From positions 124,001 through 188,000 of the forward strand of contig LLEY01000079.1 in NCBI GenBank assembly GCA_001414485.1: a stretch of DNA of 64,000 nt, in the 5' to 3' direction. Source of the stretch: Calycina herbarum (lineage: Eukaryota > Ascomycota > Leotiomycetes > Helotiales > Pezizellaceae). Under the pieces are notes generated by a model. That model did no database searches. It was not told where the DNA came from and saw nothing but the letters and a program-made list of their open reading frames with translations. The position numbers and the translations under genes are program-made. Shown here one piece after another: positions 5,011 to 62,954 of the stretch; the first letter of the stretch is position 1; each line of letters begins with the position of its first letter.

Positions 5011-5444
5011 TATAACGAAACTCAAACGAACTAAACAAAGATAACTAAGTCTCGAAGGTTAGTATATAGGTAAGAAGTATAGATACGCTAGGTTGTTCAC
5101 TTAGAAGTGAACTCGTTACTTATATCAAAGATGTTAAATAAGATGATAAGATTAATAACTAAAGTTAAGCACGAAGCTCCTATCTAGATAGTAGACGTGC
5201 TAGTATATATAGAACCTTCGTTTCCTCTAGGTAGCTAACTCGCTCGTCGAGCTGGCGATCCAACGAGCTAGTTCGCCTAGCGATCCAGCGGTCCCTTTCG
5301 TTACGTGATTTATCGTAATAAAATCCTTAGATCGCTTAGCTAACCTAACCGATCCCTAACTACTATAAGAGTATTCCGATAGTGCTTAACCTATTAGAAC
5401 GCCGCCTAGTCTTCACTTATTATATATATACGTAATTCGTAACA
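5011..5444 (-). repeat. Element B LTR (3' LTR in element sense)
   Basis: This 434-bp LTR runs from TATAACGAAAC (RIPed TGTAACGAAAC) to ATTCGTAACA on the plus strand. It carries the central U3 module with the repeated GCGATCC / AGCTCG words also seen in the solo LTR at 23752. Confidence 0.88.
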
Positions 5445-5533
5445 CTATCCCCTTCTTAGCTTAGCATGTCCCTACGCTTAAGTACGACCTAAGAAATATC
5501 GTTAGAAGGCTAGCAGCCTTCTTCTCTTTTATT

Positions 5534-6137
5534 ATGCCACTTAATCGTTTAGCGAAACACACCGAGTATATCGCTCTTAGAAAAGAAATTAACTTATCTA
5601 GAATAAAATAGCGCCTTATACCCGATGTTTAAAAGCTGGTTTTGTAAATAAATATATCGCCTCTTAAGATAAAAGTCTAAGTCGCTACAGTCGTTATATA
5701 AAGAATAGCAAGACTTACGACGTTCGTAAGGTGAACCGTATACCGACTATTCGAGATTAAGAGTCTATAGATATATAGATCCAACGACTAGAGGACGAGG
5801 CCGATAAGGCTATAGCGAAAGTCCTCCGAGTTAATAAGCAGAAGAAGCTGCTTTACGCCCGGAAGCAGAGAATAATAACGGCTAGTCTTAACTCCCTTAA
5901 GAAGCTAGATACTACTAAAGAATTAGAAAGAAAAGAAAAGGAGAAGAAGGAAGAAAAGAAGCGGATAGAAGAAGAGGCTGCTAGGCTAGCCGCCCTTCCT
6001 ACGCCCGACGTTTCTAACCCTGCCCTCGCTCTAGGCCTTAACCCAGCCTTTCTTAAGTCCTTTCCTACTAACTACGTAATATAGGCAGACTTAGGTTTTA
6101 ACAGTAGAACTCCTAAAGTTCCTTTAAGTACTAGTTA
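5534..6137 (+). CDS. Antisense accessory ORF of element B (RIPed, one frameshift)
   Basis: This frame lies on the strand opposite to B gag-pol, between the pol end and the 3' LTR. It starts at ATG 5534, shifts frame once near 5620-5660, then stays open to 6137 apart from TAA/TAG codons. It encodes a Y-S-R-Y...K-T-Y-D-V segment, where the Tyr codons (TAC/TAT) stand at positions that are Cys in other copies. A K/E-rich coiled coil and the conserved ending LGLNPAFLKSFPTNY...LGF follow. The C-terminal half is very close to the matching frame of element C. No function is known to me. See the findings for the case that it is a real gene. Confidence 0.55.
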
Positions 6138-11806: not shown

Positions 11807-11837
11807 GGCGACTGAACTTCTAAGCAGGTGCTTAAAG

Positions 11838-12271
11838 TATAACAAAACTTAAACGAACTAAACAAAGATAACTAAGTCTCGAAGGTTAGTATATAGGTAA
11901 GAAGTACAGATACGCCGGGTTGTTCACTTAGAAGTAAACTTGTTACTTATATCAAAGATGTTAAATAAGATAATAAGATTAATAACTAAAGTTAAGCACG
12001 AAGCTCCTATCTAGATAGTAGACGTGCTAGTATATATAGAACCTTCGTTTCCTCTAGGTAGCTAACTCGCTCGTCGAGCTGGCGATCCAACGAGCTGGTT
12101 CGCCTAGCGATCCAGCGGTCCCTTTCGTCACGTGATTTATCGTAATAAAATCCTTGGATCGCTTAGCTAACCTAACCGATCCCTAACTACTATAAGAGTA
12201 TTCCGATAGTACTTAATCTATTAGAACGCCGCCTAGTCTTTACTTATTACGTATATACGTGATTCGTAACA
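11838..12271 (-). repeat. Element B LTR (5' LTR in element sense)
   Basis: This 434-bp LTR matches 5011-5444 with mainly transition differences. On the plus strand its TTAAGCAC (11992-11999) is complementary to GTGCTTAAAG (11828-11837) just inside the element, which is the candidate self-priming pair. Confidence 0.88.
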
Positions 12272-12276
12272 CCTAG

Positions 12277-13628
12277 CTTATATATAAAGGAATTTATATA
12301 AGAATACTATACTACGCCTGCTTATAAATACTAAGGAATTCGCAGAACCCTCTAGAGGATAAGATAACACTACTATATTAATCGGTTATCCGCGATAGTT
12401 AAGAAAGTAATAGTAGAATATAATACCTATACTAGGAATAAGGCTTCCTACTATACTCCTTATAAACAGATAAATACTACTCTAATACTATAGATACCTT
12501 AGAAATCAATATCTATAGATTTTATTATTAAACTACTAAAATCTAAAGACCTAATAATAGGAGTTAAATATAATACGATCCTAGTTATTATAGAACGACT
12601 TATAAAGTATATAATTCTTATAGTATATATAGAGTCAAGTATAGCTAAGGAATTAGCATTTACATTCCTTAGAGAAGTAGTCTTAAGACATAGACTACCT
12701 AAAGAGATACTCTTAGACAAAGATAAGCTCTTTATCTTAAAATTTTAGATCGCTCTTATAAAACGATTAGATATAAAAAGAAAGCTTTTAACAACTTTTT
12801 ACTCTTAAATAAATAGAGGAAACGAACGGATAAATTAAGTAGTTAAAACATATCTTTATTATTATATAAACTACTAGTAAGACAACTAGGTAGAACTGCT
12901 ACTCTTAGTATAGTTTGCCTATAATAGTTTAGTAACAGAAATAATACTTATTATACTATTCTACGCTAATTTTAGATATAAATTATCAGCGTATTAAGAA
13001 CCGCTGTCTACGACTATTAATAACTAGCTTACTCGTATTCACGTCTTAAAAATCAAAAGGCTATATAAAGAACTTATAAAGGATTTATAATTCATAGCTA
13101 AAAGAAATACATACTACTATAACAAACGACGTAGTTAAGAGCTAACGCTAAAAGAGGAGGATAAAGTCTACTTAGTATAAAAGAATATTAATATAAAAAG
13201 ACTAAGTAATAAACTAGATTATAAGAAACTTAGACTATTTAAAATCAAACGAGTTAAGAGACCTTTAAATTACGAATTAGCACTACTAAGTATAATAAAC
13301 ATCTACCTAGTATTCTATATATCTCTACTTAAACCAGTACTACTAGGAGCACTACCAGCCTTATTTATAGAAATTCAACTAGTTAATCTAAACACTAAAT
13401 ATAAAGTTAAAAGAATTCTTAACTATAAGATTATTAGAGGTAAGATTAAGTATTTAATTAAATAGTTAGATTACCTATACTTAGAAAACACTTAGGAGCT
13501 AAAAAGCAATCTTAACTATTACCTAGAGGAACTTCGGAAGTTCTACTACTAAAACCTAGGGTTACCTACATCTCGTAGTTAGAAGGGAAAGCCTCGAGGA
13601 AAGCTGAATCAAGGGTTAGCTTAGTAAT
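12277..13628 (+). pseudogene. Element A gag-pol, part 2 (integrase and chromodomain), RIPed
   Basis: The host frame resumes after element B. It contains the HHCC-type region with Cys and His changed to Tyr, then the integrase core (around 12500-12860), then a tail with the motif Y-K-V-K-R-I-L-N-Y-K and LDYLYLENT (about 13382-13540). That tail is a chromodomain. Pol probably ends at the TAG-TAA-TAA cluster near 13620. Its last stretch overlaps the antisense frame at 13511-14045. Confidence 0.75.
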
Positions 13629-14045
13629 AAAAGCGAGGTTACTAGAAGAAGAGAGAGCCGCTAGCCAGGCGACCTCTAATTCCCTCTCTTCTTTCTCTTT
13701 CTCTACTCTTTCTTTCTTATCAGCTTTATTAAGTTCTTATAAGTTAGTAAGACTACGACGGAGCATCTCTTACTCCCGCTCCGTAAGAAAGCGTTATTGT
13801 TTTCATAGGCGAAGGATCTTTTATATAACTTCTTTCTAAATCTTATAAGCTATCTCTTCCTCCTACTATAACCTCCGCTTCTAGGTATCAATAGATTCCT
13901 ACTTAAAAATTAAGAGCATTCGATTTTATAACTCGACATCGTAAGATTTGCCCTTCCTAGTATACTTAGAACACTTAGAACTACTAGGAACGCCGATACA
14001 TCGACGACTAGTTTTCGCATTTATATAACAAGTATAAGGAATCAT
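13511..14045 (-). CDS. Antisense accessory ORF of element A, Zn2Cys6-like (RIPed)
   Basis: The frame starts at ATG 14045 and runs about 178 codons, interrupted only by TAA/TAG at glutamine-type positions. Residues 6-35 read C-x2-N-x6-C-x8-C-x2-Y-x6-Y. The last two Tyr codons (TAT, TAC) are one G-to-A step from Cys, so the spacing is that of a fungal Zn2Cys6 cluster with one position (Asn) not explained by RIP. A glutamate/lysine coiled coil follows, then LDSAFLEAFPSNYEM and LGF. It is homologous to the antisense frames of B, C and E. The role is unknown; a DNA-binding regulator of the element is an inference. Confidence 0.6.
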
Positions 14046-14218
14046 TTCGCGTCTTAAACGTTCGATTCAAAGGGCGTTAAAGGTCCTATATTGTTTAAGC
14101 TTATCTTTTAGAAGAGGTATTAACGATATAATAGGAACTAGAGAGGCTGCTAGCCTCTTAACGATATTTCTTAGGCTGTACTTAAGCGTGGGGACACGCT
14201 AGTCTAAGAAGGGGATAG

Positions 14219-14390
14219 TGTTACGAATCACGGTATACGTGGTAAGTAGTCTAGACGGCGTTCTAATAGAATAAGATATAATATCTAGGAAAGGAAAGTA
14301 ATATAGGAGGAAATTAGTAATATAGAAGGATATTAGGGATTTCAGGATTTCACTGTTATAGTAATGTTAGAAGTTACGTAGAGTTATATA
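14219..14390 (+). repeat. Element A 3' LTR, first part
   Basis: It begins TGTTACGAATCACGG directly after the purine tract AAGAAGGGGATAG. It follows the 5' LTR of A for 172 bp until it is broken by element C at ATATA, the RIPed form of ATGTG. Confidence 0.88.
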
Positions 14391-17800: not shown

Positions 17801-19375
17801 AAATACTTAAGCTAATACTCTTAGTCGGAAACCTGGATATAAGAGAGATAAAGAGTATAAAAAGATTATAATCTTAAAAACTCTTAAGAATAGAGACTTA
17901 GTACCTACTATATATAAAATAGTAGTAATAAACAATATCTAGATAGATAAAATTTAGAATATATATAAAGGTTATAATTAGTACGTAAAAGGGAAACTAT
18001 AGGTTCCTAGCTTATATATAAAGGAGTTTATATAGGAATACTATACTACGCTTGCTTATAGTTACTAAGGAATTCGTAGAACCCTCTAGAGAATAAGACA
18101 ATACTACTATATTAATTAGTTATCTATAATAGTTAAAGAAGTAATAGTAGAATATAATACCTATACTAGGAATAAGGCTTCCTGCTATACTCCTTATAGA
18201 TAGATAAACACTACTCTAATACTATAGATACCTTAGAAATTAATATCTATAGATTTTATTATTAAATTACTAAAATCTAAAGATCTAATAATAGAAGTTA
18301 AATATAATACGATCCTAGTTATTATAGAACGTCTTATAAAGTATATAATTCTAATAGTATATATAGAATTAAGTATAGCTAAGGAATTAGTATTTACGTT
18401 TCTTAGAGAAGTAGTCTTAAGATATAGACTACCTAAAGAAATACTCTTAAATAGAGATAAACTCTTTATCTTAAAATTCTAGATTACTCTTATAGAGCAA
18501 TTAGGTATAAAGAGGAAGCTATCTATAGCTTTCTACTCTTAAATAAATAGAGGAAACGAACAGATAAATTAAGTAGTTAAAATATACCTTTGTTATTATA
18601 TAAACTACTAGTAAGATAACTAGGTAGAACTACTACCCTTAGTATAGTTCGCTTATAACAGTTTAATAACAGAAATAACACTTATTATACTATTCTACGC
18701 TAATTTTAGGTATAAATTAATAGCGTATTAAGAACTACTATCTATAACTATTAATAACTAACTTACTTATATTTAGGTCTTAAAAATCAAGAGTCTATAT
18801 AAGGAACTTATAGAGGACCTATAATTTATAGTAGAAAGAAACATATACTACTATAACAAACGACGTAGTTAGGAGCTAATACTAAAAGAGGAGGATAAAG
18901 TCTACTTAGTATAAAAGAATATCAACATAAAAAGACTAAGTAATAAACTAGATTATAAAAAACTTAAACTATTTAAAATCAAACACGTTAAAGGACCTTT
19001 AAATTATAAATTAACGCTACTAAGGATAATAAACATCTACCTAGTATTCTATATATCCCTACTTAAACTAGCACTACTAGGAACACTACTAGCCCTACTT
19101 ATAGAAATTTAACTAGTAAATCTAAACACCGAGTATAAAGTTAAGAGGATTCTTAACTATAGACTTATTAAAGGATAGGTTAGATATTTAATAAAATAGT
19201 TAGATTACCTATATTTAGAAAACACTTAAGAACCTAGAAAAAACATTAGCTAGTACTTAGAGGAACTTCAGGAGTTCTACTATCGAAACCTAAGTCTACC
19301 TACATCGCGTAGTTAGTAGGAAAGGACTTAAGAAAGACTAGGTCGAGGCCTAGAGCGAAGGCAGGGTCGGAGACG
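14859..19375 (+). pseudogene. Element C gag-pol, RIPed and internally deleted
   Basis: Gag starts at ATG 14859 and is open for 62 codons before the first stop. A zinc knuckle lies near 15600, a protease-like segment near 16600 and RT near 17050-17710. At about 17715 the sequence jumps from the RT palm straight to the end of RNase H. Integrase runs about 18000-18900 and the chromodomain about 19130-19290. Stops are TAA/TAG throughout. Confidence 0.78.
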
Positions 19376-19872
19376 TCGGGCGTAGGGAGGGCGGCCAGCC
19401 TAGTAGCCTCTTCTTCTATCTGCTTCTTTTCTTCCTCCTTCTCTTTCTTCTTTCTTTCTAAATCTTTAGCAGCATCTAACTTGTTAAGCGAGTTAAGACT
19501 AGTAGCTATTATCCTTTAACGCTTCTCGTAGAGTTAGCGTTTTTGCTTCTTCAGTCGACGAATACGAGCCATAGCCTCAGCTATGATCGTATAACTCTTC
19601 TCCTCTTCATCATCCAGCTACTCGATCTAGGAGTCGACACTCTACTACTCGTTTACTACAGGTATTTAATTAATAATACAAACATCGCAAGACTTGTTTA
19701 TAGTAGTATAGCAACTATACTATAATAGCTTTTAGTCTCTAGGACTAAAATACTCGTATTCCTTATTAGCGTTTTTATAACGAGTATATAAAGCCATTTT
19801 CTTACTAAATAAATTAATTACTCTACTAAGGGCTTCGTAGTCAGTTCGTTATAGAGAACGGGGGGTATTCAT
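19246..19872 (-). CDS. Antisense accessory ORF of element C (RIPed)
   Basis: A single frame of 209 codons from ATG 19872 lies opposite to gag-pol. Its internal stops are TAA/TAG at glutamine-type positions. It contains Y-S-C-Y-x6-C-D-V, a lysine/glutamate coiled coil (A-R-I-R-R-L-K-K-Q-K-R, later a K/E run) and the tail LGLDLVFLKSFPTNY then LGFDSRTPEVPL. That tail is the best conserved block among the four copies. The first ~115 nt of the interval also encode the pol C-terminus on the other strand. Function unknown. Confidence 0.6.
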
Positions 19873-19962
19873 ATTAGAAAAGAAAGAAGGCCGCTAGCCT
19901 TCTGACGATATTTCTTAGGTCGTACTTAAGCGTAGGGACACGCTAAGCTAAGAAGGGGATAG

Positions 19963-20396
19963 TGTCACAAATTACGTATACACGTGATAAGTAAAGACTA
20001 GGCGGCGTCCTAACAGGTTAAGTACTATCGGAATACTCTTATAGTAGATAGGGATCGGTTAGGTTAGCTAAGCGATCCAGGGATTTCCTTTAGTTATAAT
20101 CACGTAATAAGAGTTCGCTAGACGGGGCGACAGGTCTAGCAGTCTAGCAGCGACGGAGCGACCAAGCTAGCAAGCTAGCACGAGGAAGGAAGCATCTATA
20201 TAAGACTAGCACGTCTGCTATTAGATAGGAGCTTCGTGCTCAACTTTAGTTATCAATCTTATTATCTTATTTAACATCTTTAATACAAGTAACGAGTTCA
20301 CTTCCAAGTGAACAACCCGGCGCATTCATACTTCTTACTGCATACCAACCTTCGAGACTTAGTCATCTTTGTTTAGTTCAGTTGAGTTTCGTTACA
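19963..20396 (+). repeat. Element C 3' LTR
   Basis: This 434-bp LTR starts TGTCACAAATTACG after the purine tract AAGAAGGGGATAG. It is less RIPed than the 5' copy. It retains GTGCTCAACTTTAG after the TATA box and the full palindrome GTTCACTTCCAAGTGAAC. Confidence 0.88.
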
Positions 20397-28778: not shown

Positions 28779-30482
28779 ATGAATTCTGCCCCGCCTCCAT
28801 TCACACTGCCTGCGAGTTTTGTACATTTGACGCCTTTGAATATTAAAGCATGTCAGGCGTTTAACGATGTCGCATTGCTTGTCAAAAATATTGGTTTATT
28901 AAGTACTCCCCAAGGTTCAGCTGGGCGTGTTCGGCATCCCGCCAAGTTCATGATCATTGAACTTTGGACTAGAGGGGGACCAGCGGGACCAGCGGCTTCA
29001 CCAGGCCCCGGTCCTTCCCAGCCTGCTTCTCCGCAAGACCTTGAACTGTCACTCCCGTCATCGTCGGAAGCTCTAGCTGGCATTGAAAACACATCCTCCC
29101 CTCTGCCGGAACCAGAAGAGCTACAATACCAAGGCTTCTATGATCTCTCTTTTAAAAACCTGCCAGATATACCCCGAACCGGCTAGGTAGCTGGCATTGG
29201 CAGATGGAATTCTGACAGTAGCGACTTTCTACGAACCGGTGTTGTTGATCTGATGCTAGCCCCGAGCGACAGCAAGAAACTCTACGGTGTACGAGGAAAA
29301 CATGCCATATTCTACTTTGAACGGGTAGGCGGCTCTTTTTGTATCAAGTCACCTCCTCTAGGGGCACCCATCTTTCTCGGCACCGAGGAGTTCTCCACAG
29401 GATCACGTTTGGTCACGGCAAAATCACAGATTGTCACCTTTGGCCGCCTCACATATCTCCTAGCATATACTATTCGCAATAAAGTCACCTTTCAATCAAA
29501 TTTGAAGGCATACTTTGAATCCTATCTCTCAAGTCCTGCCCCTCCGCCTGACATCTCTGCTACGCCATCCCCATAGGACTTTACTCTCCATGATTGGGTA
29601 TACAAGGGAACGGCGGGCGCAGGTGGCTTTGGGACTGTTAGTGCAGCAAAGCATAGAGTCACTGGAGACCCAGCAGCAGCAAAGACTCTCGTGAGGAAGA
29701 CATCCAAGACGATGAGAGACATTGCAGACGAGATATTTATTTTAGAACGTCTTCCCATCCATGCTCGACTGTTAGCTAAGCGTGCTGTCTACTATGAGCG
29801 AGGTGATAGCTGGTTTACAAGTCTAGACAACGAAGATGACGAACGTCATACATCGCCGGCGCGTGCAGAGAGGGTCATTATCATCATCCAACCTTTTGCT
29901 AGACTCACTCTTACTAAGCTGTTGCCGAGGTTGTCTCTTGACCTGAAGATCGTAGTGTTTCATCAATTGCTACAAGGTGTGCATGCTCTACACAATGCAA
30001 CCTCTTTTCCACTTGTCTATCGAGATCTCAAACTTTCCAACGTCGGCGTTGTATCGTACAATGATCACAGTATCGCAATAGTGATCCTGGACTACGGGCA
30101 AACCATCCAGGCCCGGCCAACCAGCCCAATCAAAGGACAGGCGGGCACTCATGGATACTAAGCGCCGGAAATACAACATCAGATCCATAGCCTAGCTCTC
30201 GATATCTGGTCTTGCGGAATCATTGGTCTTAGAATGTTTGTGCCAGAGTGGCAGATTCCCTTTGATGTCCCTGTCCAAGCACATTTCCAGGAAGGAGTGG
30301 AGATACTACAGTCTCGTGAATCAAATACGGCTAATCACCTCATTGCCCAGATGCTAATTTGGGAGTCTAAAAAACGTATCTCTGCCTCCGATGCTCTGCT
30401 TCATCCCTGTTTTGCTACTCTTACCGAAAAAGCAAGCTCTTCAGATATCCTAACCAGTAAACGATCTAGAGGAGAAAATTAA
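28779..30482 (+). pseudogene. FHA-domain protein kinase, broken by three CAR-to-TAR stops
   Basis: A single frame of 567 codons from ATG 28779 to TAA 30480. The three interruptions are TAG at codon 136, TAG at codon 266 and TAA at codon 461. The N-terminal half is FHA-like (G-R-G-K-H-A-I-F-Y-F-E type core, then G-R-L-T-Y-L-L-A-Y). The kinase follows: Gly loop G-x-G-G-F-G-T-V near 277, Lys in A-A-A-K, YRDLKLSN at 414-421 (HRD His replaced by Tyr), DYG at 438-440 (DFG variant), and A-P-E just after the third stop. D-I-W-S-C-G follows. It is probably a Ser/Thr kinase-like protein. No indel is present, so inactivation is by transitions only. Confidence 0.75.
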
Positions 30483-36338: not shown

Positions 36339-37905
36339 TTAGTTGTGTATTAGGAGCATGATACGGGGTATGATATGCTAGTCGAAGCTTCTTCCCTTCT
36401 TGAATCGTTCTAAGTATTACTTTAACTATCGAATCCTTGTATTAGCGATCTCTCTTATTAGTGCCAACGCGTCCAGCTTCCTTAGATGTATAATCATATA
36501 TGTCTTACGTAAGAAACCTGTAACGTTTGCCATACCTTCTCGATCGTAGCTCCTTCGTAAGTTGTTAAAGTAGTGGAGAAGTGGAATCTAAGTCGTAGGA
36601 GTCTAGCCCCGTCTCCTGTAGATTACGAGTAAATCCTCTAGTATCGATCACCTTCCTAAGTCTCTAAAGCTAGCCCTTTATTTCAACGCCTTCTAGTGAA
36701 AGACTGACATGCTTATATTAATAACTCTTGATAAATATGAGTTCTTTTACTTAGGGAGGAGGATCGAACTTGTTAAATAACTTCTTTAATATAAAACTAA
36801 ATATGTTATAACGTAGAGTATACGAGCTATTTTTCCTATCGTTCTAAAGAATTTCTCTATTTAGAAAGTACTAGGTAAGTAAAGATAAACTTAGGCTATA
36901 GTTACTATTTAACTCTCGAAGCTTTAAGTGTTTAGAATAGTAATAGTAGTTAGTAACGATTGATAGGAGATCTATACCGTTTATAATATCTTAGCTTCTA
37001 ATACCTAAGTAGATAGAAGGTGACATCGCTTTACAAACTCTATTATCCCTAGTACAAAGCGTGATAGTGTACTTTTTAGCTCTCTAAAGAATTTTCTTAT
37101 AAACTTCCTTATACTATAGTTGATCTTTATAGATATAGTAAAAGCGGGTTACTATCTTACGAAATTAGACTATAGGGATATAAATCTTACTAGGGATATT
37201 CCCTAGATACACGTTCTGTTTTTACGTTTCTAAATAATAGTAGTAGGGGATGAGAAGTTTCATTCCTATATTAGAATAGTACTCTTCTTAAAAAATCTAT
37301 GCTCTCTACTACTATCGATTAGATATAAGTTAATCTAGAAGATAAAGGGTTATTATCAGGTTTCTAGAGACTAAACCTTGTTCTAAATCTCCTCTACTAA
37401 CTTGATTTATATAAAGAGTAAACTAATAGGAAATTTGCTATACTAATATACCTAATCTATATATTCTATCCTAGTACGCTTTTTTTTATTATTATTCTAA
37501 TAAATAGACTCTTCGTTGATCTAAAATAAGCCCGAGCTTGTTAAGTGCTTTATATACTTAATCACTCTTTCGAATACAACGTCTCTTACTATGCTTATAG
37601 GTAGAGTGCCTCCGGATTTCGACTCTACTGAATATCTACTAAAGGTATTATTCTTAGGTAATTTAGAAGAGGGTTCGTAAGAATAAGAGACTATAACAAA
37701 TTCGTAGTTATTAAATAGGCTAATTGTTTCTTAGCGTAAGAATTTAGAACCTAAATTAGTAAGCGATCCCTCCGAACCTTTAAGGCCCTTTTAGTAAGAT
37801 GCTTCGTCAAGTTTAGTAATATATAGATAATATAAATTTTTAATCTAGCTCGATCTTTTATAGGTCTATTTATACTTTTGTATTTTAATAATTTCTAAGG
37901 AGAGT
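36339..37905 (-). pseudogene. Unrecognised RIPed gene, C-terminal part, split by element D
   Basis: On the minus strand one frame can be followed for over 500 codons from 37905 to TAA 36339-36341. The interruptions are TAG/TAA (Gln positions) and a few TGA (Arg). Composition is protein-like: long basic/hydrophobic helices, e.g. V-V-F-E-R-V-I-K-Y-I-K-H-L, later F-L-R-K-T-Y-M-I-I-H-L-R-K-L. The frame continues across element D into 44239-44530 when one AGAGT is removed. No domain recognised. The density of stops suggests it belonged to a repeated family. Confidence 0.5.
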
Positions 37906-38224
37906 TGTAATAGCCTGCTATTAAGAATAAGAGTTGCTAAGGTTATATATATACTAGATAGAATACGGTTTAGGGTATAGGAATGCTAAGGGTTACGTAG
38001 AATGTAAGGATTACGTATTCGAGTATCGGAATGTCTGGTTCGGACCTCCGAGTCTATTATTAGTATTCGAACCCTTTTATATATAGATGCTCTTACCCTT
38101 AGTATCGGGAAAGGTTAATTTGATCTTTTCCTTCGTATTTAGAGCCTAGTATCTAAGTATGTTATTCTACGGAACGTACTTCTATATACCTCTTTTATAG
38201 TATTATCTATTTCGTGCTATTATA
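37906..38224 (+). repeat. Element D 5' LTR (319 bp)
   Basis: It starts TGTAATAGCC and ends in RIPed CTATTATA (CCGTTACA in the 3' copy). TATATATA at 38078-38085 lies about 30 nt before the self-primer segment at 38117, so the mRNA start is expected there. Confidence 0.9.
38117..38129 (+). promoter_or_regulatory. Predicted mRNA 5'-end self-primer of element D
   Basis: AATTTGATCTTTT lies about 31 nt after the TATA box. It is the exact reverse complement of 38227-38239 just inside the LTR. Confidence 0.6.
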
Positions 38225-38226
38225 TT

Positions 38227-38239
38227 AAAAGATCAAATT
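38227..38239 (+). promoter_or_regulatory. Self-priming primer-binding site of element D
   Basis: AAAAGATCAAATT begins 2 nt after the LTR and pairs over 13 nt with 38117-38129. No tRNA-type TGG start is present. This matches the Tf1 type of priming, in which the folded mRNA 5' end primes minus-strand synthesis. Confidence 0.6.
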
Positions 38240-38584
38240 CTTCTCGCTAGGGACGGCCTATTATAATATCTTACCAAGCGTGTTAACGTCCTATATCGAA
38301 TTCGATTTAGCCTAGATTCGGATCAGTACAACAACAACCTTAAATTACTAGTTTATAGACAGCTAGTAATATCAGGGTTTAATATCTATTAGTTAGCTAG
38401 TAAAAAGCGTATCCTCCGATACGTTAAGGAAGTAGAAGACGCTAAGGATTCCTAAGACTTCAAATAACCCTCTCTATATAGGGATTACTATATAAGGTTT
38501 AGAAAGTCGATATTAAGTCACCTGGAAGGCTCCTGAATCTACCTCTAAACCCTCTCTAACGACATCGAGCATATTAAACTAAGG

Positions 38585-43880: not shown

Positions 43881-43919
43881 ATGAAGCCTCGGGGACGAGT
43901 CTTTTTTAAGAGAGGGGGA

Positions 43920-44238
43920 TATAATAGCCCGCTATTAAGAATAAGAGTTGCCAAGGTTGTATACGTACTAGATAGGATATGGTTTAGGGTATAGGAATGC
44001 TAAGGGTTACGTGGAATATAAGGATTACGTATTCGAGTATCGGAATGTCCGGTTCGGACCTCCGAGTCTATTGTTAGTGTCCGAACCCTTTTGTATATAG
44101 ATGCCCTTACCCTTAGTATCGGGAAAGGTTAATTTGATCTTTTCCTTCGTGTTTAGAGCCTAGTATCTAAGTATGTTATTCTACGGAACGTACTTCTATA
44201 TACCTCTTTTATAGTATTGTCTGTTTCGTGCCGTTACA
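43920..44238 (+). repeat. Element D 3' LTR (319 bp)
   Basis: It begins TATAATAGCCC (RIPed TGTAATAG) after the purine tract AAGAGAGGGGGA and ends GTTACA. It is less RIPed than the 5' LTR. Confidence 0.9.
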
Positions 44239-44530
44239 AGAGTAGGGCGTCGCATTCGTCTCGGAGGTTTTAAAGAGGCTTAGTAGTGTCTATTTTAATA
44301 TTCTTTAGCTTTATATTGATAATTATATATGATTTAGAATAGTTAATGTCTGATGTGAGAGCTCTGAAGCTCAAAAGTAATGCTAAATTTAACGTTTAAG
44401 GCTCTTATATTAGAGAGTGTAATCGACTTCAGCCTAAAAGCATTGGAGCCTCACGAGCCTGGAACCATGGGTCTGTGCGTACAGGGCATTTTGACGATTT
44501 TGACGAGTTTTAGCCCCTCCACCAACAAAT
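44239..44530 (-). pseudogene. Unrecognised RIPed gene, N-terminal part, split by element D
   Basis: It continues the frame of 36339-37905 on the minus strand. The frame is readable to about 44520 with TAA/TGA at glutamine/arginine-type positions and includes W-F-Q-A-R-E-A-P-M-L-L-G and R-H-Q-L-F-type helices. The true start lies upstream of a 17-bp C run (44541-44557) and was not found. Confidence 0.45.
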
Positions 44531-45855: not shown

Positions 45856-48505
45856 CTAACAATCAACGCCTATGCTACTAATATCCGAGACTAGGTAGCC
45901 TATATACTTATTTTGCTATATACCTGTATAAAACTTTGCCTCCTATTCCCGGCCATCAGGTCCTAAGCTATATAAAAAGTGCTAGGTATCTAGGAGTAGA
46001 CTACATCTATCTGCTACCTTTTGCTTTAAATTAGCCCTAAAATCTGCACTAGTAAAGCCGCGGCCCTAGATATTGTTATTATTAAAGTAGAATTTGTAAA
46101 CGGAGTCATAGCCTGCCTATCTAGCAAATGTTGATAGCTGGCGAGAGGTTTGTAGGTTGATCTAATACGTGACCTCCCTAACCTTTATCGACCCGCTAGC
46201 CTTAGAGCCCTTAGCATTTTTTAGATCGTTCCTATCGTAGCTATTAACGAGGTTGCTAAGTAGGTACTCTATACACTCTTTCATAGTTGGCTTAAATAGC
46301 AGGCCCAGGGCCCATTCGATCGCGATAGAGACTTCCTCTATAGAGCCCTTGTTGTACTAACGTATTAGCGAGCCTGAGCCTAAGTCTAAAGCACCTTGCT
46401 GTACTGCTGTGGGACAGAATTCCTTCTCGATGAGGGTAGCGAGTGTCGGGCGGCTCAAGTATTTTCCAGTCCCGACGCCCGCGCATTTCTTGTCGATGAT
46501 AGGTGGTGCTGACATAGGCGGTGGGCTTGATAATTGAGGAGGTGGAGGACTTTTAGGGTTGTGTTGCTCTGTGACCCCGTTCCAGAGGACATTGACGCCC
46601 GGGGTCCGCTCCCAGCTCCCAGCCTTTGATCCTAGGTAGGTCCGCACGCTCTTTGCCACCTTGCCGTCGCCTATATCAAAAGGGACCGTGTCGTACGATA
46701 GAAGGTTGGCTACCTCCCCCGCAACCTGCGGCGCAGAAAATGACGTTCCTGACCCGTGTATAAGGTTACCTGATTTGTCTAGACAGCTAACGTCCTCCCC
46801 CACGGCGTTAAGATTGACTTGAGGCCCGCCCTGGCTGAATAGGGAGGGAAGGCCGTTACTTTTGCACGATCCAACTACAATTATAGGTAAATCGTCGCTT
46901 CCCCATACGGCTGGCGCTTGAAAGATCAAGGGGTGCCCTTGTTGGGCCTCGTTACCTGCAGACTGAACTATCGGGACATCCATGTCGAGAAGACTCTTGA
47001 TGACGTCTCGAAATTCTGAGATGGTTTCCCTCCTCATTCTCTCAGTTGTTGCTATCGACGAGGTAACCACGCTCTTCTTACGACGCTCAGGTCGGCTCAC
47101 CATGTCTTCTATGATCATCATAAATCCCTCTATCATCTCTGCTACTGTAATCTCGTGGAGCTTAACTACAACTAGCTTAGCTTGTTTTGCTACGCCATAC
47201 GTCGGGCTTAGTGCTTTGCCAGCAGTGCAGGTGCTGTGTGATATGCTTATAGGATCCTCCCAAGGAGCCGAATTCGACAACCTCGCTAACCGAGTCACGA
47301 GGTGTTGCTCATCGGGGACTCGATTAGGGAATTCCTACAGTACGTTAGCAGGTATTTCAATGTCCAACTTTCTAGTCTACCATTCCTTTCTCACTTCTAG
47401 TTGTCATTGTCTTGGCTTAGAAGAGAAAGAGTAGCTATTGCTTGAGAAGAGTTTGGAGAATAGCTACTAGTAGCATTTGCATAAACAACTTACACCATTC
47501 TTCCAAGCCACCCCTTCCTCGAAATGGTACACGAAGCTGTGTCGTCCGTTATTGCTCTCATACACATAGTTCTTAAGGTCGTTAATATTAGGAATGGTGC
47601 TAAAATAAAGATTAACCATCACGCCCTATCTTACTATCTAGTGTCAAGTGGACCTACCTAGGCTGGCTAATAACGACTAGCTCCGGGACAGCATTCACCT
47701 GCGTAGAGTATCGGACGTCCCTCTTAGCTTTGGCTGCCGATGATGATACAAGTGGAGCCAAGTTGCTAGGTGACATATAGCGATCAACCTGTCCGGCAAC
47801 GTTGGGCTCGACAGCTTTCACCCCTGGGTTCTTGGCAATTTGCTCACGCTGGGAGTCGGTAGCTATAGCAAAAAAAGGTAAGCAAAGAAATAGTCAAAAG
47901 TTGAGAAAAATGTTAAAAAACAGTGCAGAGTAATATATAAGTTATAAGTGTTACTTACTATTCATGGCTACCCAAAATACAAGTCTTCCTCTTGAAGAGA
48001 GTGGGGGTCGCACATTGTCTTTCCCAACAACATCTAGGAGGAATCTTTCTGTCTTGCTAGTTTCATCGTTGTTCTTGCCATCCCGCGGGAAGATAAGGTA
48101 CCCTAGGTCTCGGGGGGGGTTGTCTCGCTCCGACAGTCCAGTAACAACAACCGCACGACGATCAGCTCGGGTAGTGCCAGACTCGATAGATACTTCTAGG
48201 GGATGGAACTCAACTACAGTATCGACATCGGCGTAGCCTCGCAACTGGGTAACCTCGTCAGGTGAGGCCTCCACAGTCCATGAGACCAGTTGTTCTTGGA
48301 GGTTCGTCCAAGGCAAGAGGTCCTCGGTTCCGACGATATTCTTAACAAACTCGCTAGTCTTCGAAATATCGGTGCCGTTCTTTGGAAAGATTGTGTAGAG
48401 TGCTTTGCCAGGGCTAGGCTGCCTATCGATTCGAGGAAGGTTAGTAGCTAGAGTATAGCTGAAAAGGCAGATAATGTATACGAAGAACGGTAATAGAGAC
48501 CGCAT
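45856..48505 (-). pseudogene. Secreted subtilisin-like (S8) protease with a RIPed C-terminal module
   Basis: Four exons: 48505-47959, 47862-47658, 47599-47494, 47334-45856. They total 2337 nt, an exact multiple of three (778 aa). Residues 1-20 are a signal peptide. Two propeptide-like units follow. Of the catalytic triad, the Asp position reads Glu (F-E-E-G-V, residue 278), His is in HSTC (319), Asn in SAGN (414), and Ser in G-T-S-F-S-A-P-Q (484). A Pro-rich linker leads to a Cys-containing module starting IDKKCAGVG (about 566). That module has seven TAG stops, all CAG-type, the first at 46357. The catalytic part has none. A protein truncated before the module could still be made. The Glu may impair activity. 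Confidence 0.75.
45897..46497 (-). repeat. Inverted duplication, copy I (C-terminal secreted module)
   Basis: It is nearly identical, in inverted orientation, to 54202-54801, with essentially only transition differences. Edges are AGCCTATATACTT on the left and the bases for ATCGACAAGAAATG on the right. Outside these edges the two genes are unrelated. Confidence 0.88.
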
Positions 48506-49327: not shown

Positions 49328-49830
49328 GTAATGTCGCGAGGCAGTGACGAGAATACTTTCAGACCAGTAAAATTTCACCTTATAGTAACATGTCCAACAT
49401 GGCGAAGCAGAAGGGCGTTAACGAGAATACTCTAGGCCAACCAACGGCCTATAATCCTTCAAGGTAAAATATCAAACCAACATTTCCAACACGACGAAGC
49501 AGAAGGATTTTAACAAGGATACTCTGGGCCGACTAACGGTCTACAATCCAACCAGGTAAATTATCAAACCAACATTTCCGACATGGCGAAGCAGAAGGAT
49601 GTTAACGAGGATACTCTAGGCCGGCCAACGGTCTACAATCCAGCAAGGTAAAATATCAAACCAACATTTCCAACACGACAAAGTAGAAGGATGTTGACGA
49701 GAACACTTTAGGCCAGCAAACAATCCTACGAGATAAAAGGCAGCTCCGAAACAATAATGCCAACACGGCGAAGCAGTAGGGCGCTAACGAGCATACTTTA
49801 GACTAACTTTAGAATAATTTACGATCCTAC
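49328..49830. repeat. Tandem repeat, about 92-bp unit, about 5 copies
   Basis: Units start at 49399, 49491, 49583, 49675 and 49765 with A(T/C)GGCGAAGCAG-type starts. A partial unit lies before 49399. The first three spacings are exactly 92 bp and the next is 90 bp. Each unit contains GAAGCAGAAGG, ACTCTAGGCC and ATCAAACCAACATTTCC. Differences are mainly transitions. Confidence 0.88.
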
Positions 49831-52463: not shown

Positions 52464-54035
52464 ATGATCTTAAAAACAGTCCTTTCTATTAGCCTGTAAG
52501 TCTATTTATGTAACCCTTTTCTCTGATGATTCTTATTTTTTTAACAAACTTCTAGGAGCATCATCTCCTCAAGCTCAGCTATACCATTAGTTGACCATAT
52601 TCAAAATATTCCTCGAGACCTAGGAGACATCAAAGAATGGACAGTTGTTGGAGACTCTTACGCTACTGGCGTTGGAGCAGGAAAATGGGATGAGTTTCAC
52701 AGATGCTTTCGTTTTAACGGAGCTTACCCTCGTTTAATGAACACTGATATTCGTCTCACTGGATCTATGAATGGGCGCCTCTTGAACAACGTTGCTTGCT
52801 CTGGTGCTAGCTCTAAGGAAGTTCTAGCGGAGCAGTTTCGTGACGAGCCTACCTTTGATTGGCAATACGGACAACGTCCAGTTTTTGGGAAGCCCCAGAT
52901 GGCAGTTATCCACGTCGGCGGTGATGATATCGACTTCCTCGGCTTGGTCAATAATTGCATCTACGAAATCCTTCCATATAAAAGTTGTTCGAAGCAACTT
53001 GAATTTTCATGGGCCTTGCTTCGGACTTCGCCTACCGACAATACACCAAACTCAGCACTCGTGAAAAATATTGCATCTGTTATTCAAGCTACTGTGGACA
53101 AGGGTCGCAAAGGTGTCGGCAATGATTTCAGAGCCTTCGTCCCCGCCTATGCTAGATTTTTCAACGAAAAAACAGAGCTATGCAACAAACGAACCTGGAA
53201 CTTGTACTTAGGGGGTAGGTACGGAGCGACGCTTCTGTCAAACGGCCTACGCAAAACTTTCAACGATATGTCCGATGTGTTAAACGCAGCAGTAAAGGCC
53301 GCAGTCTCTGGATTCAAGGATATCGGGGTCAGCTATGTGGAGTGGAATGACATCCTCGACGGTCATAGATACTGCGAGGGGGTTGATGAGCCGGCCCCAG
53401 ACAACGAGGGGACCTGGTTCTTTAATCATCCTGCAATCCTTGACACCAGAAACTTTCCCTGGTTGAACACGTTAGCAACTAAGATAGATGGATCTTCAAA
53501 AGATTACGCTGACTTCCGAGCAAAGCACGATTCAAATACAGAGTTCAAGGTCAACAACAACCCAATGTCATCCAAAGACTTTAGGGATGCTCTTTACGAC
53601 TCTGTTTTAGGTTCAAAGGAGGGAGAAGTCCAAGCAGAAGCTTTTGGAGACAGCTACAAGCAGACCTTTGTTAACCTCATCAAGGTCTTCCATCCTAAAC
53701 CAGTTCTCCACGCTAAAATTATGGACAAGATATTTGAAGAATTCAAAAAGGAGCTACCTAAGGAAGAACTCAAATGTCGAGGAATCTCAGGCACACTCGC
53801 TGTCAACAAAGACAAGGCTCTAATCGCAGCTGACGAGTTCTGCAAAAGGACTGACCCACCAAGTAGTAAACCGGAAAATTCAAATCAAGGTACACCAGAT
53901 GACATGATCATTTCACTACGGAACTACCTAGATGAAGGTAAAACAATTACCAATCACGACGAATGTGTAAAAGGATTCAGCAAAATCCTGGATAGCTGTG
54001 ATGGAAACAATCCGGCTAATGTAAGTAGTCCATAA
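52464..54035 (+). CDS. Secreted SGNH (GDSL-like) hydrolase with C-terminal module
   Basis: Exon 1 is 52464-52495 and exon 2 is 52556-54035, with a 60-bp GTAAG...TCTAG intron in between. The signal peptide spans residues 1-19. SGNH block I is VVGDSYATGVG (Ser45). Block II is ACSGASS (Gly94). Block III reads GGDD (132-135) rather than GxND, and block V is DGHRYCE (279-285). A second domain with F-C-K-R and C-D-G-N-N-P (about residues 430-500) follows. GTAAGT at 54021 suggests a further intron leading to the module at 54036-54801; otherwise translation ends at 54035. The enzyme is likely an esterase or lipase acting outside the cell. The catalytic part is free of RIP stops. Confidence 0.75.
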
Positions 54036-55459: not shown

Positions 55460-56216
55460 ATGTCGAATTCTAAAGCTCTGCTTAAGAGTGTTAAGCAACC
55501 TACTAGGGAAGCTAGTAGACCCCCCTCCGAAAGGTCTACGAACCGCACTCGTACGCCTAAAAACAAAAAGTCTTAGAAAGGAAAGCAACCTGCTCGAAAC
55601 CCTAAAGATAACCGAGACTTTTCTAATATAGACGAGATACGAGGTGTAGTATAAGGCTTAGAAGAAAAACTTTAAGATAACAACGATCGATTCGCCTAGT
55701 TAGAAAGGATGATAAGCGAACTCTAACTGGCCTCTATAAATCCACCTAGAATCGATCCCGAGCCTCTTTCGCCTCTAAGTACTACGCGAGACCCTTATTG
55801 CTTAAGGGATCCTACCTCTAATGCCTTCCCTTAACGGCAGACTACTCTACCTGCTTTCGAAGGCACCCCGAATCCCCTCCTACCCTGAACCGCTAAAAGC
55901 AAGATCACGGAAAGGATTGAACCCTTGAATGACGGTACCTTACCTACCTACTAACAATGGAAGATATCGGTATACGATAGACTCCTAGTAAACGCCGATT
56001 ATTATAATACTATACTGACTTAAAAGGCCCTCATCTGGGGAACAACTACTGGCCACGCTAGGAACTACCTTAAGCCTAGATACGAGTCTAAGTCGATTTA
56101 TATTGCTTTCTACGATTATTAAGATATAATTAAACTTTTAGATTCATATTTCTTAACCGGATATAAGACAGAGGATGCACGGAACGCCTTCTAGGCCTTG
56201 TAGATGGGTGGAAAGG
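55460..56216 (+). pseudogene. Element F gag, RIPed
   Basis: ATG 55460 opens Met-Ser-Asn-Ser-Lys-Ala, then a basic region with S-N-I-D-E-I-R-G-V-V as in D. Many TAG/TAA follow. It is collinear with D gag until the E insertion at AAAGG. Confidence 0.75.
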
Positions 56217-56662
56217 TGTAACGAAACTCAAACGAACTAAACAAAGATGACTAAGTCTCGAAGGTTGGTATGCAGTAAGAAGTATGAATGCGCTAGGTTG
56301 TTCACTTAGAAGTGAACTCGTTACTTGTATCAAAGATGTTAAATAAGATGATAAGATTGATAACTAAAGTTGAGCATAAAGCTCCTATCTAGGTGGCAGA
56401 CGTGCTAGTATATATAGAACCCTTCGTGCTACCTGGATCCCTATATAAGCCTGGATCCCTGGATCCCTTTGGATCCTTTAAGGGATCTAACGGGATCTAT
56501 TACGTGACCTCCAACAGTTATCTAATAGTAAGATCCTGGAATACCTAAATGCCTTCGTATTACTGATTCCCTCTTGTGCTACCTTCCATTTCCTGGATAT
56601 CGTGCCTTGTCCTGTCAGAGCGCCGTCTAGACTACTTACTATGTATAACGTGATTCGTAACA
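56217..56662 (-). repeat. Element E LTR (3' LTR in element sense)
   Basis: This 446-bp LTR has a U3 centre carrying repeated GGATCC / GGGATC words (56440-56500), unlike the other LTRs. The outer parts are shared with A. Confidence 0.88.
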
Positions 56663-56752
56663 CTATCCCCTTCTTAGCCTAGCGTGTCCTCACGCTTAAG
56701 TATAAGCTAAGGAACTCGGTTAAGGTGCTAGCAGCATCCTTTCCTTTCTATT

Positions 56753-57356
56753 ATGTCCTACCCTATACGGAAGAAGAAAGAAGAACGTATACTTCTTATA
56801 AAAAGTATTAAAATGGTTTATAACGAAATATTACTATGCTCTCGCTACGCTTCTCAAAAGCGCAGATGTTTCATAGATTCCTCCTAATCCTCTTAATATT
56901 CTAAATGTGTTTAGTCGAAGCTAAAATGCGACGGTACCGATGATGCTTAGGAGAAAAACGTTCCCCGCGTTAGCGACTGGTCCTCTATTGAAAAACAAGA
57001 GGAGAAGCTGGAGAGAGAGGAGGAGGAGGCGATGGCGAGGATTCTGCGGTTGCGAAAGCAGAAGGCCTTTCTAAAAGAAAGGCGGCGTGAAATGTCTCGT
57101 CGAGGTCTTCGTTTTCTTAACGAACTCGACGCTGCTAAGGAGGTAGAAAAGAAAGAGAAAGAAGAGAAAGAGAGAAAGGAAAAAGAATAGTGAGAGGCGG
57201 AGGTTGCCTGCCTGGCGGTCCCGCCTATTCCTGTCGGTTCCTAATCCGAGATGGGTCTCGACCTAGCCTTCCTCGAAGCCTTTCCTTTAGACTACGAGAT
57301 GTGGGTAAACTTGGGTTTTGTTGGTGGAACTCTTGAAGTTCTGCTAGGCAACGGTT
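56753..57356 (+). CDS. Antisense accessory ORF of element E, Zn2Cys6-like
   Basis: One frame of 201 codons from ATG 56753, opposite in strand to gag-pol. Stops inside are TAA/TAG, plus one TGA, all RIP-compatible. Residues 29-59 read C-x2-Y-x6-C-x9-Y-x2-C-x6-C. Both Tyr codons (TAC, TAT) are one G-to-A step from Cys, giving the full Zn2Cys6 spacing with basic residues between. Residues about 85-150 are a charged coiled coil. The tail reads LDLAFLEAFPLDYEMWVNLGF. This is the best preserved of the four copies. The 3' end overlaps the pol C-terminus on the other strand. Function unknown; a nuclear DNA-binding protein is an inference. Confidence 0.65.
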
Positions 57357-60300
57357 AAGGTTGCTTTTTGGTTCCTAAGTGTTTTCTAAGTGTGGGTAAT
57401 CTAACTACTTGATTAAATACTTGACTTGTCCTCTAATAAGTTTATAGTTAAGAATCCTCTCGACTTCGTATTCGGCGTTTGGGTTTGCTGGTTGAATTTC
57501 TGTGAGTGGAGCTGGTGGTGCTCCTGGTGGTGCTGGTTCGAGTAAGGATATATGAAATACTAGGTGGATGTTTATTATCCTTAGTAGTGCTAATTTATAG
57601 TTTAAAGGTCCTTTAACGTGTTTGATTTTAAATAGTCTAAGTTTTTTGTGATCTAGTTTATTACTTGGTCTTTTTGTGTTAATGTTCTTTTGTACTAAGT
57701 AGACTTTATCCCTCTCTTTTAGCGTTGGCTCCTGACTACGTCGTTTGTTGTAGTAGTGCGTATTTTTTTCTGCTATAAATTGTAGGTCTTCTATAAGTTC
57801 CTTATGTAGATTCTTAATTTTTGAGACATGAATACGAGTAAGTTAGTTATTAATGGTTGTAGATAGTGGTTCTCGATATGCTGTTAATTTATACCTAAAG
57901 TTAGCGTAGAATGGCGTAATAAGTGTTATTTCTATTACTAAACTATTATAAGTAAACTGTGCTAAAGGTAGTAGTTCTACCTAGTTGTTTTGCTAGTAGT
58001 TTATATAATAACGAAGGTATGTTTTAACTACTTAATTTATTCGTTCGTTTCTTCTATTTGTTTATAGGTGAAAAGCTGTTGAAAGCTTTCTTTTCGTACC
58101 TAATCGTTCTATAAGAGCGATTTAAAATTTAGAGGTGAAGAGTTTGTCTCTATCTAAGAGTATTTCTTTAGGTAGTCTATGTCTTAAGACTACTTCTCTA
58201 AGGAATATAAATGCTAATTCCTTAGCTATACTTAACTCTATATATACTATAAGAATTATATACTTTGTAAGTCGTTCTATAATAACTAGGATTGTATTAT
58301 ATTTAACTCCTATTATCGGGTCTTTGGATTTTAGTAGTTTAATAATGAAATCTATAGATATTGATTTCTAAGGTATCTATAGTATTAGAGTAGTGTTTAT
58401 CTATCTATAAGGAGTATAGTAGGAAGCCTTATTCCTAGTATAGGTATTATATTCTACTATCACTTCCTTAACTATCGCGGATAACTGATTAATATAGTAG
58501 TATTGTCTTATCTTCTAAAGGGTTCTGTGAATTCCTTAGTAACTGTAAGCGGGTGTAGTATAGTATTCTTGTATAAATTCTTTTACGTACGAACTAGGAA
58601 CCTATAGTTTCCCTTTTATATACTAGTTATAACCTTTATATATATTTTAAATTTTGTCTATCTATATGTCGTTTATTACTATTATCTTGTATATAGTAGG
58701 TACTAAGTCTCTATTCTTAAGAGTTTTTAAGATTATAATCTTTTTATACTCTTTATTCCTCTTATATCCGGGTTTCTAACTAAGAGTATTAGCTTAAGTA
58801 TTTAACGTTCCTTTTATATGTCGAATAATAATGTTAAATCCTCCTAATATCTCTAATTATCTAGCTAATCGTCTTATTATAAGTTTCTTAGTTATTATAA
58901 ACGTTCTAAGGTTCTCGTAGTCGGATAAAACTATAACTAGGTGTTTTACTAGCTGTAAATAAATCCTCTAGTGTTCTAAAGCTAATATTATAGTAAGTAA
59001 TTCTTTGTTAAAAATGCTATAGTTTTGTTATACTAGGTTAAATATCTTAGAATAATATATAATAGGTATAAGTTTTCCTTTGTTATTTAGCTATAGGTAA
59101 ACCGCTCCTACTGCTGTATCTAAGGTGTCTATTTTAATCGTACTAGGCTTTTCTATGTCGAAATTATATAGAATAGGTTCCTTTATAAACTTTGCTTTAA
59201 TTTTCTAAAAAGCGTCCTCCGCCTATTTATTCTATATAAACTTAACAGCTTTCTTAACCAGTCCCGACATTAGTTTAGTAATCTTTATATAGTCTCAAAT
59301 AAACAGATAGCAAAAGTTTATAAATCTAAGGAAGGACTATACGTCTTTTATATTTTCTAGTAACTTCTAGTTTAAGACGTCCTAGATCTTTACTAGATCC
59401 ATCTCTATTTTTCCTAAACTAAATACCTATCCTAGGAAAAGGGTCCGAGTTACTCTAAACTCGTATTTCAAGAGTTTTAACTAAGAGTTTACTTTTATAA
59501 GTTATTATAAAACTTCTTTAACATATCCCTCGTATTCCTCTTCTTTTTCTAAGAAGATTAGGATATTATCTAGGTAATAAATTACTATTACCCCTAGAAG
59601 ATCTCCTAAAATATTATTATTTTATCTTTAACATATAGCTAGTATATTATAAAGTCTAAAAGGCATAACTGTATATTTATAAAGGCCCGATAGTAAGGCA
59701 AATACTGTCTTCTATTCATCCTCGACTTTTATTCGTATAAGTCTATAGGCGTTTTATTAATCTAATTTCGTAAATCGTACTACCTTGCCTAACTTGTCTC
59801 ATAAGTATTAGCTAGGTAGCAGTAGATAAGCGTTCTTAACTATAGCATGATTTACTTCTTAGTAATCAATATATACTCTTCTATCTAGATTGTCTTTCTT
59901 TTTAACAATAAGTATATTTAAGGTAATTAGCAACTTAGATTTTCTAATATATCCCTTCTTAATACCTTCCTTTATATAACTTTCTATTCTCTATAGACTT
60001 TTCTAGTTATATAACTAAAGCTTCTACTTCGAGAGGTAATAACCCTTTTTTAATTTAATCTTATAATCCTATAAGCGATGTTTTAGCAAGGCTCGTAAGT
60101 CTTCTAGGTTTTCGAACAAAGCCTTAAATTCTCTATACTATATAGGTATTTTATTATCAGCTGTTCTACTAACCTGTGGAGGACCCTGGGCTAGGTGTTC
60201 TAGCGTCTTAGAAGAGGTGGCGCTAACCTTGTTCTAGCCTTGTAGTTATAATTATAAACCTATATAATTATATCAACTGAAGGTTATTATTTAAGCCTTC

Positions 60301-62474: not shown

Positions 62475-62508
62475 AATAGCAATCTTACTTCTAAGTAGGT
62501 GCTTAAAG

Positions 62509-62954
62509 TATAACGAAACTCAAACGAACTAAACAAAGATGACTAAGTCTCGAAGGTTGGTATACAGTAAGAAGTATAAATACGCTAGGTTGTTCACTTA
62601 GAAGTGAACTCGTTACTTATATCAAAGATGTTAAACAAGATAATAAGATTAATAACTAAAGTTAAGCACAAAGCTCCTATCTAGGTAGTAGACGTGCTAG
62701 TATATATAGAACCCTTCATGCTACCTAGATCCCTATATAAGCCTAGATCCCTGGATCCCTTTAGATCCCCTAAGGGATCCAACGGGATCCATCACGTGAC
62801 CTCCAACAGTTATCCAACAGTGAGATCCTAGAATACCTAAATGCCTTCGTATTACTAATTCCCTCTTGTGCTACCTTCCATTTCCTGGATATCGTGCCTT
62901 GTCCTGTCAGAGCGCCGTCTGGACTACTTACCACGTATAACGTGATTCGTGACA
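62509..62954 (-). repeat. Element E LTR (5' LTR in element sense)
   Basis: 446 bp, ending GATTCGTGACA before AAAGG. It is paired with 56217-56662. Confidence 0.88.

Follow-up and report, generated by a model that had tools for sequence, protein, structure and literature searches.

The window analysed here is a 64-kb stretch of DNA (positions 124001-188000 of contig C357) from a genome of 68.8 Mb in 379 contigs. It contains four pol 3' ends of a single retrotransposon lineage, belonging to elements A, B, C and E, and beside each of these ends the strand opposite to gag-pol carries a reading frame some 200 codons long. Judged from Pfam matches, the elements carrying this antisense frame are chromodomain Ty3/gypsy retrotransposons, since the pol end of a sister copy elsewhere in the genome (L010) matches both SH3_Tf2-1 (PF24626, E 7.2e-13) and the chromodomain (PF00385, E 1.9e-9). 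The features are as follows (window coordinates):

Element E, on the minus strand, LTR-bounded:
56197-56662, minus strand, 3' LTR (repeat pair with 62488-62954, 91.9% identical)
56661-56750, plus strand, conserved leader, from the LTR edge to the antisense ATG
56753-57358, plus strand, antisense gene, 201 codons and TAA, with seven internal RIP-type stops
57225-57358, overlap of the antisense 3' end with the pol 3' end (pol stop at 57227-57225 on the minus strand)
57378-57887, minus strand, match to the lineage pol end
62488-62954, minus strand, 5' LTR (partner of 56197-56662)
Element B:
5009-5445 and 11836-12272, direct-repeat pair, LTRs
5443-5532, leader
5534-6138, plus strand, antisense gene (= L039), with RIP stops and one single-base frameshift
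6158-6667, minus strand, match to the lineage pol end
Element A:
12989-13492, plus strand, match to the lineage pol end
13512-14129, minus strand, antisense gene, start codon now ATA at 14129
14131-14220, leader
Element C:
18717-19226, plus strand, match to the lineage pol end
19246-19872, minus strand, antisense gene, start and stop verified
19875-19964, leader

The start of the antisense frame is some 90 bp away from the 3' LTR, and its end falls within the last ~44 codons of pol. In copy E it begins at 56753, which leaves 90 bp to the inner LTR border, and its stop codon occupies 57356-57358; the LTR edge and the start codon are 88 bp apart in B and 90 bp in C. In A, whose LTR borders are less clear, the distance is about 90 bp by alignment of the leader, and the start position 14129 was placed via alignment to a sister family. 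An earlier reading made from the sequence alone (the sequence-only reading) had reported a frame opposite to gag-pol in each of these four elements. The frames were found and their starts and stops checked; its coordinates for copy A (13511-14045) proved too short, as this copy runs to 14129. A putative further element of ~6.4 kb in the window, delimited by an LTR-like direct-repeat pair (37892-38246 and 43903-44263), contains neither a relative of the antisense gene nor the lineage pol end at E<=1e-3.

The association is not confined to the window. Twelve further pol ends, hand-picked from 150 listed ones as not seen among the antisense matches of the E, B and A searches and with similar ones left out, all have an antisense relative on the opposite strand (12/12; 16/16 including the four in the window). 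Nine of these relatives are nearly full length, one is truncated (L077) and two (L081, L082) represent a short form, which keeps the cysteine region and the LGF tail and is devoid of the coiled coil. A search of the genome with the short-form protein gave at least 150 scored matches (best 150 of 221 candidates). Its cysteine region was compared in 12 copies, i.e., L081, L082 and ten others (L086-L095) picked mostly for having few stops. The spacing is C-x2-C-x6-C-x9-C-x2-C-x6-Y, with Cys or Tyr at the first five positions in 12/12 copies and Tyr at the sixth in 12/12.

Searches of the genome with the E, B, A and short-form proteins gave 722, 734, 743 and 221 first-look candidates, respectively, with at least 150 scored matches in each case; the four lists may overlap. 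Among the matches listed, two are stop-free over the match, L010 (E family) and L069 (B family), with frames of 201 aa each, so that at least two open copies of the antisense gene exist elsewhere in the same genome; the proteins encoded by them (P0001 and P0002, respectively) are 44% identical. The stops of the other copies were traced in 30 E-family and 31 B-family copies including the open ones, a non-random sample consisting of the best-scoring 30 per search plus L069. In these 61 copies, 517 of 524 in-frame stops follow from C>T/G>A changes alone relative to the open copy (E, 305/311; B, 212/213), and 57 of the 61 have no internal indel in the aligned span. More generally, the repeat copies differ from the open ones chiefly by C>T and G>A, as fungal RIP predicts. 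These changes have affected 74% of the CpA sites in both families and 48% (E) or 35% (B) of the CpG sites, and are rare at CpT and CpC (3-11% in the two families), a pattern that suggests either RIP with two contexts or RIP combined with methylation decay. Among 313 pattern stretches in viral contigs, no relative of the antisense gene was found.

Is the antisense frame maintained as a protein? Between E and B, 152 codons outside pol give pN of 0.428 and pS of 0.790 (synonymous sites being saturated), with mismatches at codon positions 1/2/3 of 72/62/97, and of 33/26/57 from residue 70 onward. The cysteine region alone has no third-position excess in this comparison (27/24/26); either gaps in the alignment account for this, or it is a point against strong constraint in that region. 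For the other five frames dN/dS is 0.90-1.51, with the exception of the mirror frame (0.30), which has two stops in each open copy. When seven families are represented by one sequence each, the part outside pol varies most at position 3 and least at position 2 in 21/21 pairs. RIP cannot make transversions, and with transversions only, position 3 is highest in 15/21 pairs and position 2 lowest in 21/21; note that the 21 pairs come from seven sequences, five of them RIPed, and are thus non-independent. Alignments made at the DNA level only gave a significant excess at position 3 in five of six pairs (p 2.5e-3 to 6e-7), the sixth being the E-F pair (p 0.10); with transversions alone, p was below 0.05 in 2/6 pairs. 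In the E-B alignment of this type, 394 of the 463 bases aligned fall in the same frame.

In the E family, transversions shared between copies occur in 12 columns, which are distributed 4/0/8 over the codon positions (p 0.018; N/S of the antisense frame 0.13); singleton transversions are distributed 4/1/6 (p 0.18). The trend is similar in both sets, and the contrast between inherited and later transversions is weak. The B family has one shared transversion column outside the overlap.

We are therefore confident, from these substitution patterns, that the antisense frame is a protein-coding gene under purifying selection. A chance open frame is disfavoured by the E-B pN/pS, the RIP-type stops and the codon-position pattern over seven families. 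The proposal of the sequence-only reading, that this group of elements has a conserved accessory gene in antisense, is supported. The protein is conserved across diverged copies, and nonsynonymous changes lie well below synonymous ones between families, giving a ratio that is not near one; intact copies do occur, although within the same genome; and the internal stops are nearly all of the RIP type (C>T/G>A). These are the points on which the proposal had been said to stand or fall.

That reading did miss one complication: the region encoding the tail motif is shared with the end of pol, so that the conservation of the motif could be a shadow of pol. In element E, the 3' ends of the two genes have 134 bp in common. 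We compared pN/pS in the last 36 codons for 7 of 21 possible pairs, and obtained 0.25-0.53 for the antisense frame and 0.74-1.29 for the pol frame, the antisense frame being under more constraint in 7/7 pairs. The other two sense frames gave 0.47-1.01 and, for the mirror frame, 0.31-0.78. As the antisense ratios are below those of pol, the tail motif seems to owe its conservation to the antisense protein and not to pol, and pol appears to be the less constrained partner, its frame having little or no constraint there. That the whole antisense frame is a by-product of pol or of base composition is hardly credible in view of this comparison, even though the mirror frame has low ratios in the overlap and is partly open on the sense strand (165 aa in L010): about 157 of the 201 antisense codons fall outside pol, and the mirror frame is interrupted by stops in both open copies. 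The comparison of the overlap ratios by itself disfavours a pol shadow.

The sequence between the 3' LTR and the antisense ATG is conserved as well. This leader comprises 90 nt with a mean column identity of 89% (nine sequences from six families) and, judged by eye, is likely to hold the polypurine tract, which is on the minus strand in element E. Three helices are predicted in it; 96.8% of the cells are paired, as compared to 37.0-60.3% if the partners are slid by 1-3 columns, and the covariation score was matched by none of 500 shuffles. Four pairs, all in the last hairpin, are changed on both sides (a number reached in 45/500 shuffles), and the number of further pair types was reached in 362/500. 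One of the helices joins the polypurine-tract region to a downstream complement. With nine related sequences and RIP-type changes, these predicted helices are suggestive only. Wobble pairs in the leader do not discriminate which strand's RNA folds, and the leader may have its function in either RNA, sense or antisense, or at the DNA level. An Rfam search of 56100-57500 yielded two matches, both far under their gathering scores. The leader's identity and covarying helices would also suit a conserved antisense RNA or DNA, e.g. a regulatory RNA or a dsRNA trigger, in which the open frame is incidental. Nevertheless, the codon-position and pN/pS patterns track the antisense frame and indels are almost lacking within families, which makes this alternative very improbable compared with a protein-coding gene.

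The antisense protein has the cysteine cluster, coiled coil and tail that the sequence-only reading had described. Six cysteines are clustered towards the N-terminus; a coiled coil, long and charged, comes next; and the tail contains acidic residues and, in both open copies, lacks Lys and Arg. P0001 contains exactly six cysteines (29-32-39-49-52-59) in the spacing of fungal Zn2Cys6 clusters (C-x2-C-x6-C-x5-12-C-x2-C-x6-8-C), an arrangement that was found in 0/200000 shuffles of this protein. Each of the 30 E-family copies has either Cys or its G>A product Tyr at every one of the six positions. In the other six long-form sequences aligned, the gap between the second and third cysteine is 8 or 12 residues, the canonical value being 6. 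The best Pfam match of P0001 is Zn_clus (PF00172; E 0.022, 15.3 bits, under the cut-off of 21), and its best single-sequence PDB match is the Zn2Cys6 protein PPR1 (E 0.11). Zn_clus was matched at E<=1 by one of five long-form members, and none of three short-form copies matched anything in Pfam; in most of these sequences many Cys have become Tyr through RIP, which reduces their scores. A PDB search with a five-member profile found no zinc-cluster chain, and NCBIfam gave no informative match to the antisense protein. AlphaFold2 (two-sequence input) predicted a single helix over residues 73-155, for the most part at pLDDT >90, and the cysteine cluster with low confidence (pLDDT blocks 47-56), the prediction thus supporting the helix only. 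The N-terminal 65 residues include 14 (P0001) or 15 (P0002) Lys/Arg, and the last 44 residues none in either protein, with 6 (P0001) or 8 (P0002) Asp/Glu. Such a tail may be comparable to acidic activation domains.

Zn2Cys6 factors generally consist of the cluster, a coiled coil and an acidic tail. The antisense protein is similar to them (Gal4/PPR1, PF00172) in the cysteine spacing of the E family (and nearly so in the short form), in the cluster preceding the coil (in the long form) and in the acidic tail; it differs in scoring under the Pfam cut-off, in the longer first loop of other families, in being encoded by a mobile element and in its size of only ~200 aa. From the spacing and the matches, the cluster is probably a zinc cluster of the Zn2Cys6 type, and the layout as a whole resembles a miniature fungal transcription factor. 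That the antisense protein acts as a regulator of transcription or chromatin is plausible, although we stop a little short of favouring it.

The following scheme would join these features. The transcript would start in or beside the 3' LTR, from an antisense LTR promoter. The protein of ~200 aa would fold as a zinc-bound six-cysteine cluster of the Zn2Cys6 type, dimerise via its charged coiled coil, enter the nucleus and bind DNA, and its hydrophobic and acidic C-terminal tail, free of Lys/Arg, would contact the transcription or chromatin machinery. The element would in this way be supplied with a regulator of its own, acting either on transcription from the LTRs or on the chromatin where copies insert. 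As a whole, the sequence from coding antisense gene to self-encoded nuclear zinc-cluster regulator is our best explanation, and we consider it about evenly balanced between right and wrong.

The basic, cysteine-rich N-terminus and the long charged coil would also suit RNA or DNA binding, and the gene adjoins the chromodomain end of pol. The protein might therefore be a nucleic-acid-binding accessory with a structural or cDNA-handling function in packaging, reverse transcription or the targeting of integration via the chromodomain integrase. This appears rather unlikely to us: the product of a gene in antisense orientation is not made from the genomic RNA together with gag-pol, and the cysteines are spaced as in zinc clusters (in E, and also in the short form apart from its sixth position) and not as in the knuckle motif CX2CX4HX4C. 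Another possibility is that the protein counters host silencing (RIP, DNA methylation or RNAi) rather than acting on its own promoter. The heavy mutation of elements by this host would indeed favour an antagonist. However, elements that contain the gene have not escaped heavy mutation, and no domain match in Pfam or NCBIfam points to such an activity, which we regard as quite improbable.

A self-encoded regulator would have a counterpart in HBZ of HTLV-1, a bZIP and not a zinc-cluster protein, which has in common with the antisense protein that it is encoded on the antisense strand of a retroelement. The similarity in outline is one of functional analogy, with no homology, and it is by this analogy that an antisense LTR transcript is proposed above. 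Somewhat less likely than not, in our view, is the further reading that a large fungal chromodomain lineage has a 3'-LTR-driven, antisense and partly pol-overlapping miniature Gal4-like factor, and a coil-less form of it, as a fungal counterpart of HBZ; if this is true, such a factor might control the LTRs of the element itself or neighbouring host genes. A passage of one paper describes HBZ as a nuclear antisense-strand protein (PMC11963269); the closest analogies described are HBZ and the TRP28 proteins of plant Retand elements, a role in regulation having been suggested for the latter (PMC11963269).

The kind of gene is already known (brtn, 2011), the likeness to brtn being one of position and descriptions only. 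Reportedly, the gene was named by Zhao et al. in 2011 in Boty elements of Botrytis cinerea. The sequence-only reading had set the antisense gene outside the standard gag-pol plan of fungal gypsy elements; as a claim of something unprecedented this does not hold, since brtn of Boty sits at the same place. The relevant passages describe brtn as an extra gene of Boty-like elements (PMC8365987, PMC7264820, PMC4227169), antisense and situated between pol and the 3' LTR in B. cinerea and Sclerotinia sclerotiorum (PMC7264820), and mention a CHROMO domain in a Boty-like gypsy element (PMC4227169) and, in Monilinia, a transcript with similarity to Pol and BRTN (PMC5987419). As far as these passages go, an antisense gene between pol and the 3' LTR of a chromodomain gypsy element is thus common to both systems; the gene described here additionally overlaps the end of pol. 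A term search in a survey of fungal LTR elements (PMC3248453) gave no passage on antisense genes.

In plants, aORFs in antisense orientation are described from the region separating pol and the 3' LTR of Retand (TRP28), RIRE2 and Grande in passages of two papers, which report that DNA binding and regulation were suggested for TRP28 and that the Grande protein is nuclear (PMC7264820, PMC11963269). What these have in common with the gene studied here, according to the same passages, is the antisense position between pol and the 3' LTR. Retand differs in its TRP28 domain (PF04195), in a region of 2.9-6.6 kb between pol and the 3' LTR and in belonging to a non-chromovirus lineage (passages of PMC11963269); Pfam gave no match to PF04195 in the antisense proteins of our elements. 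The layout of a six-cysteine cluster, charged coiled coil and acidic tail without Lys/Arg is new here, and a zinc-cluster reading of such an antisense gene was not found among the papers listed in searches of open-licence PMC literature. As a kind of gene the finding is ordinary, and its interest lies more in the particulars, namely in the selection at the protein level that is seen in several diverged families despite RIP, the overlap with pol, the coil-less form and the regulator-like layout. Antisense genes of LTR elements have been reported in fungi and plants, and for the one described here the domain layout suggests a testable role, that of a self-encoded DNA-binding regulator.

Besides these elements, the window contains a tandem array (49387-49714; unit of 92 bp, 3.6 copies, 84% matches) and, between the repeats, several other open frames: a protein-kinase-like stretch slightly under the Pfam cut-off (29691-30161, plus strand), an S8 peptidase (46357-47298, minus strand; Pfam E 4.6e-13) and a Fungal_lectin_2 protein (52737-54035, plus strand; Pfam E 1.5e-7).
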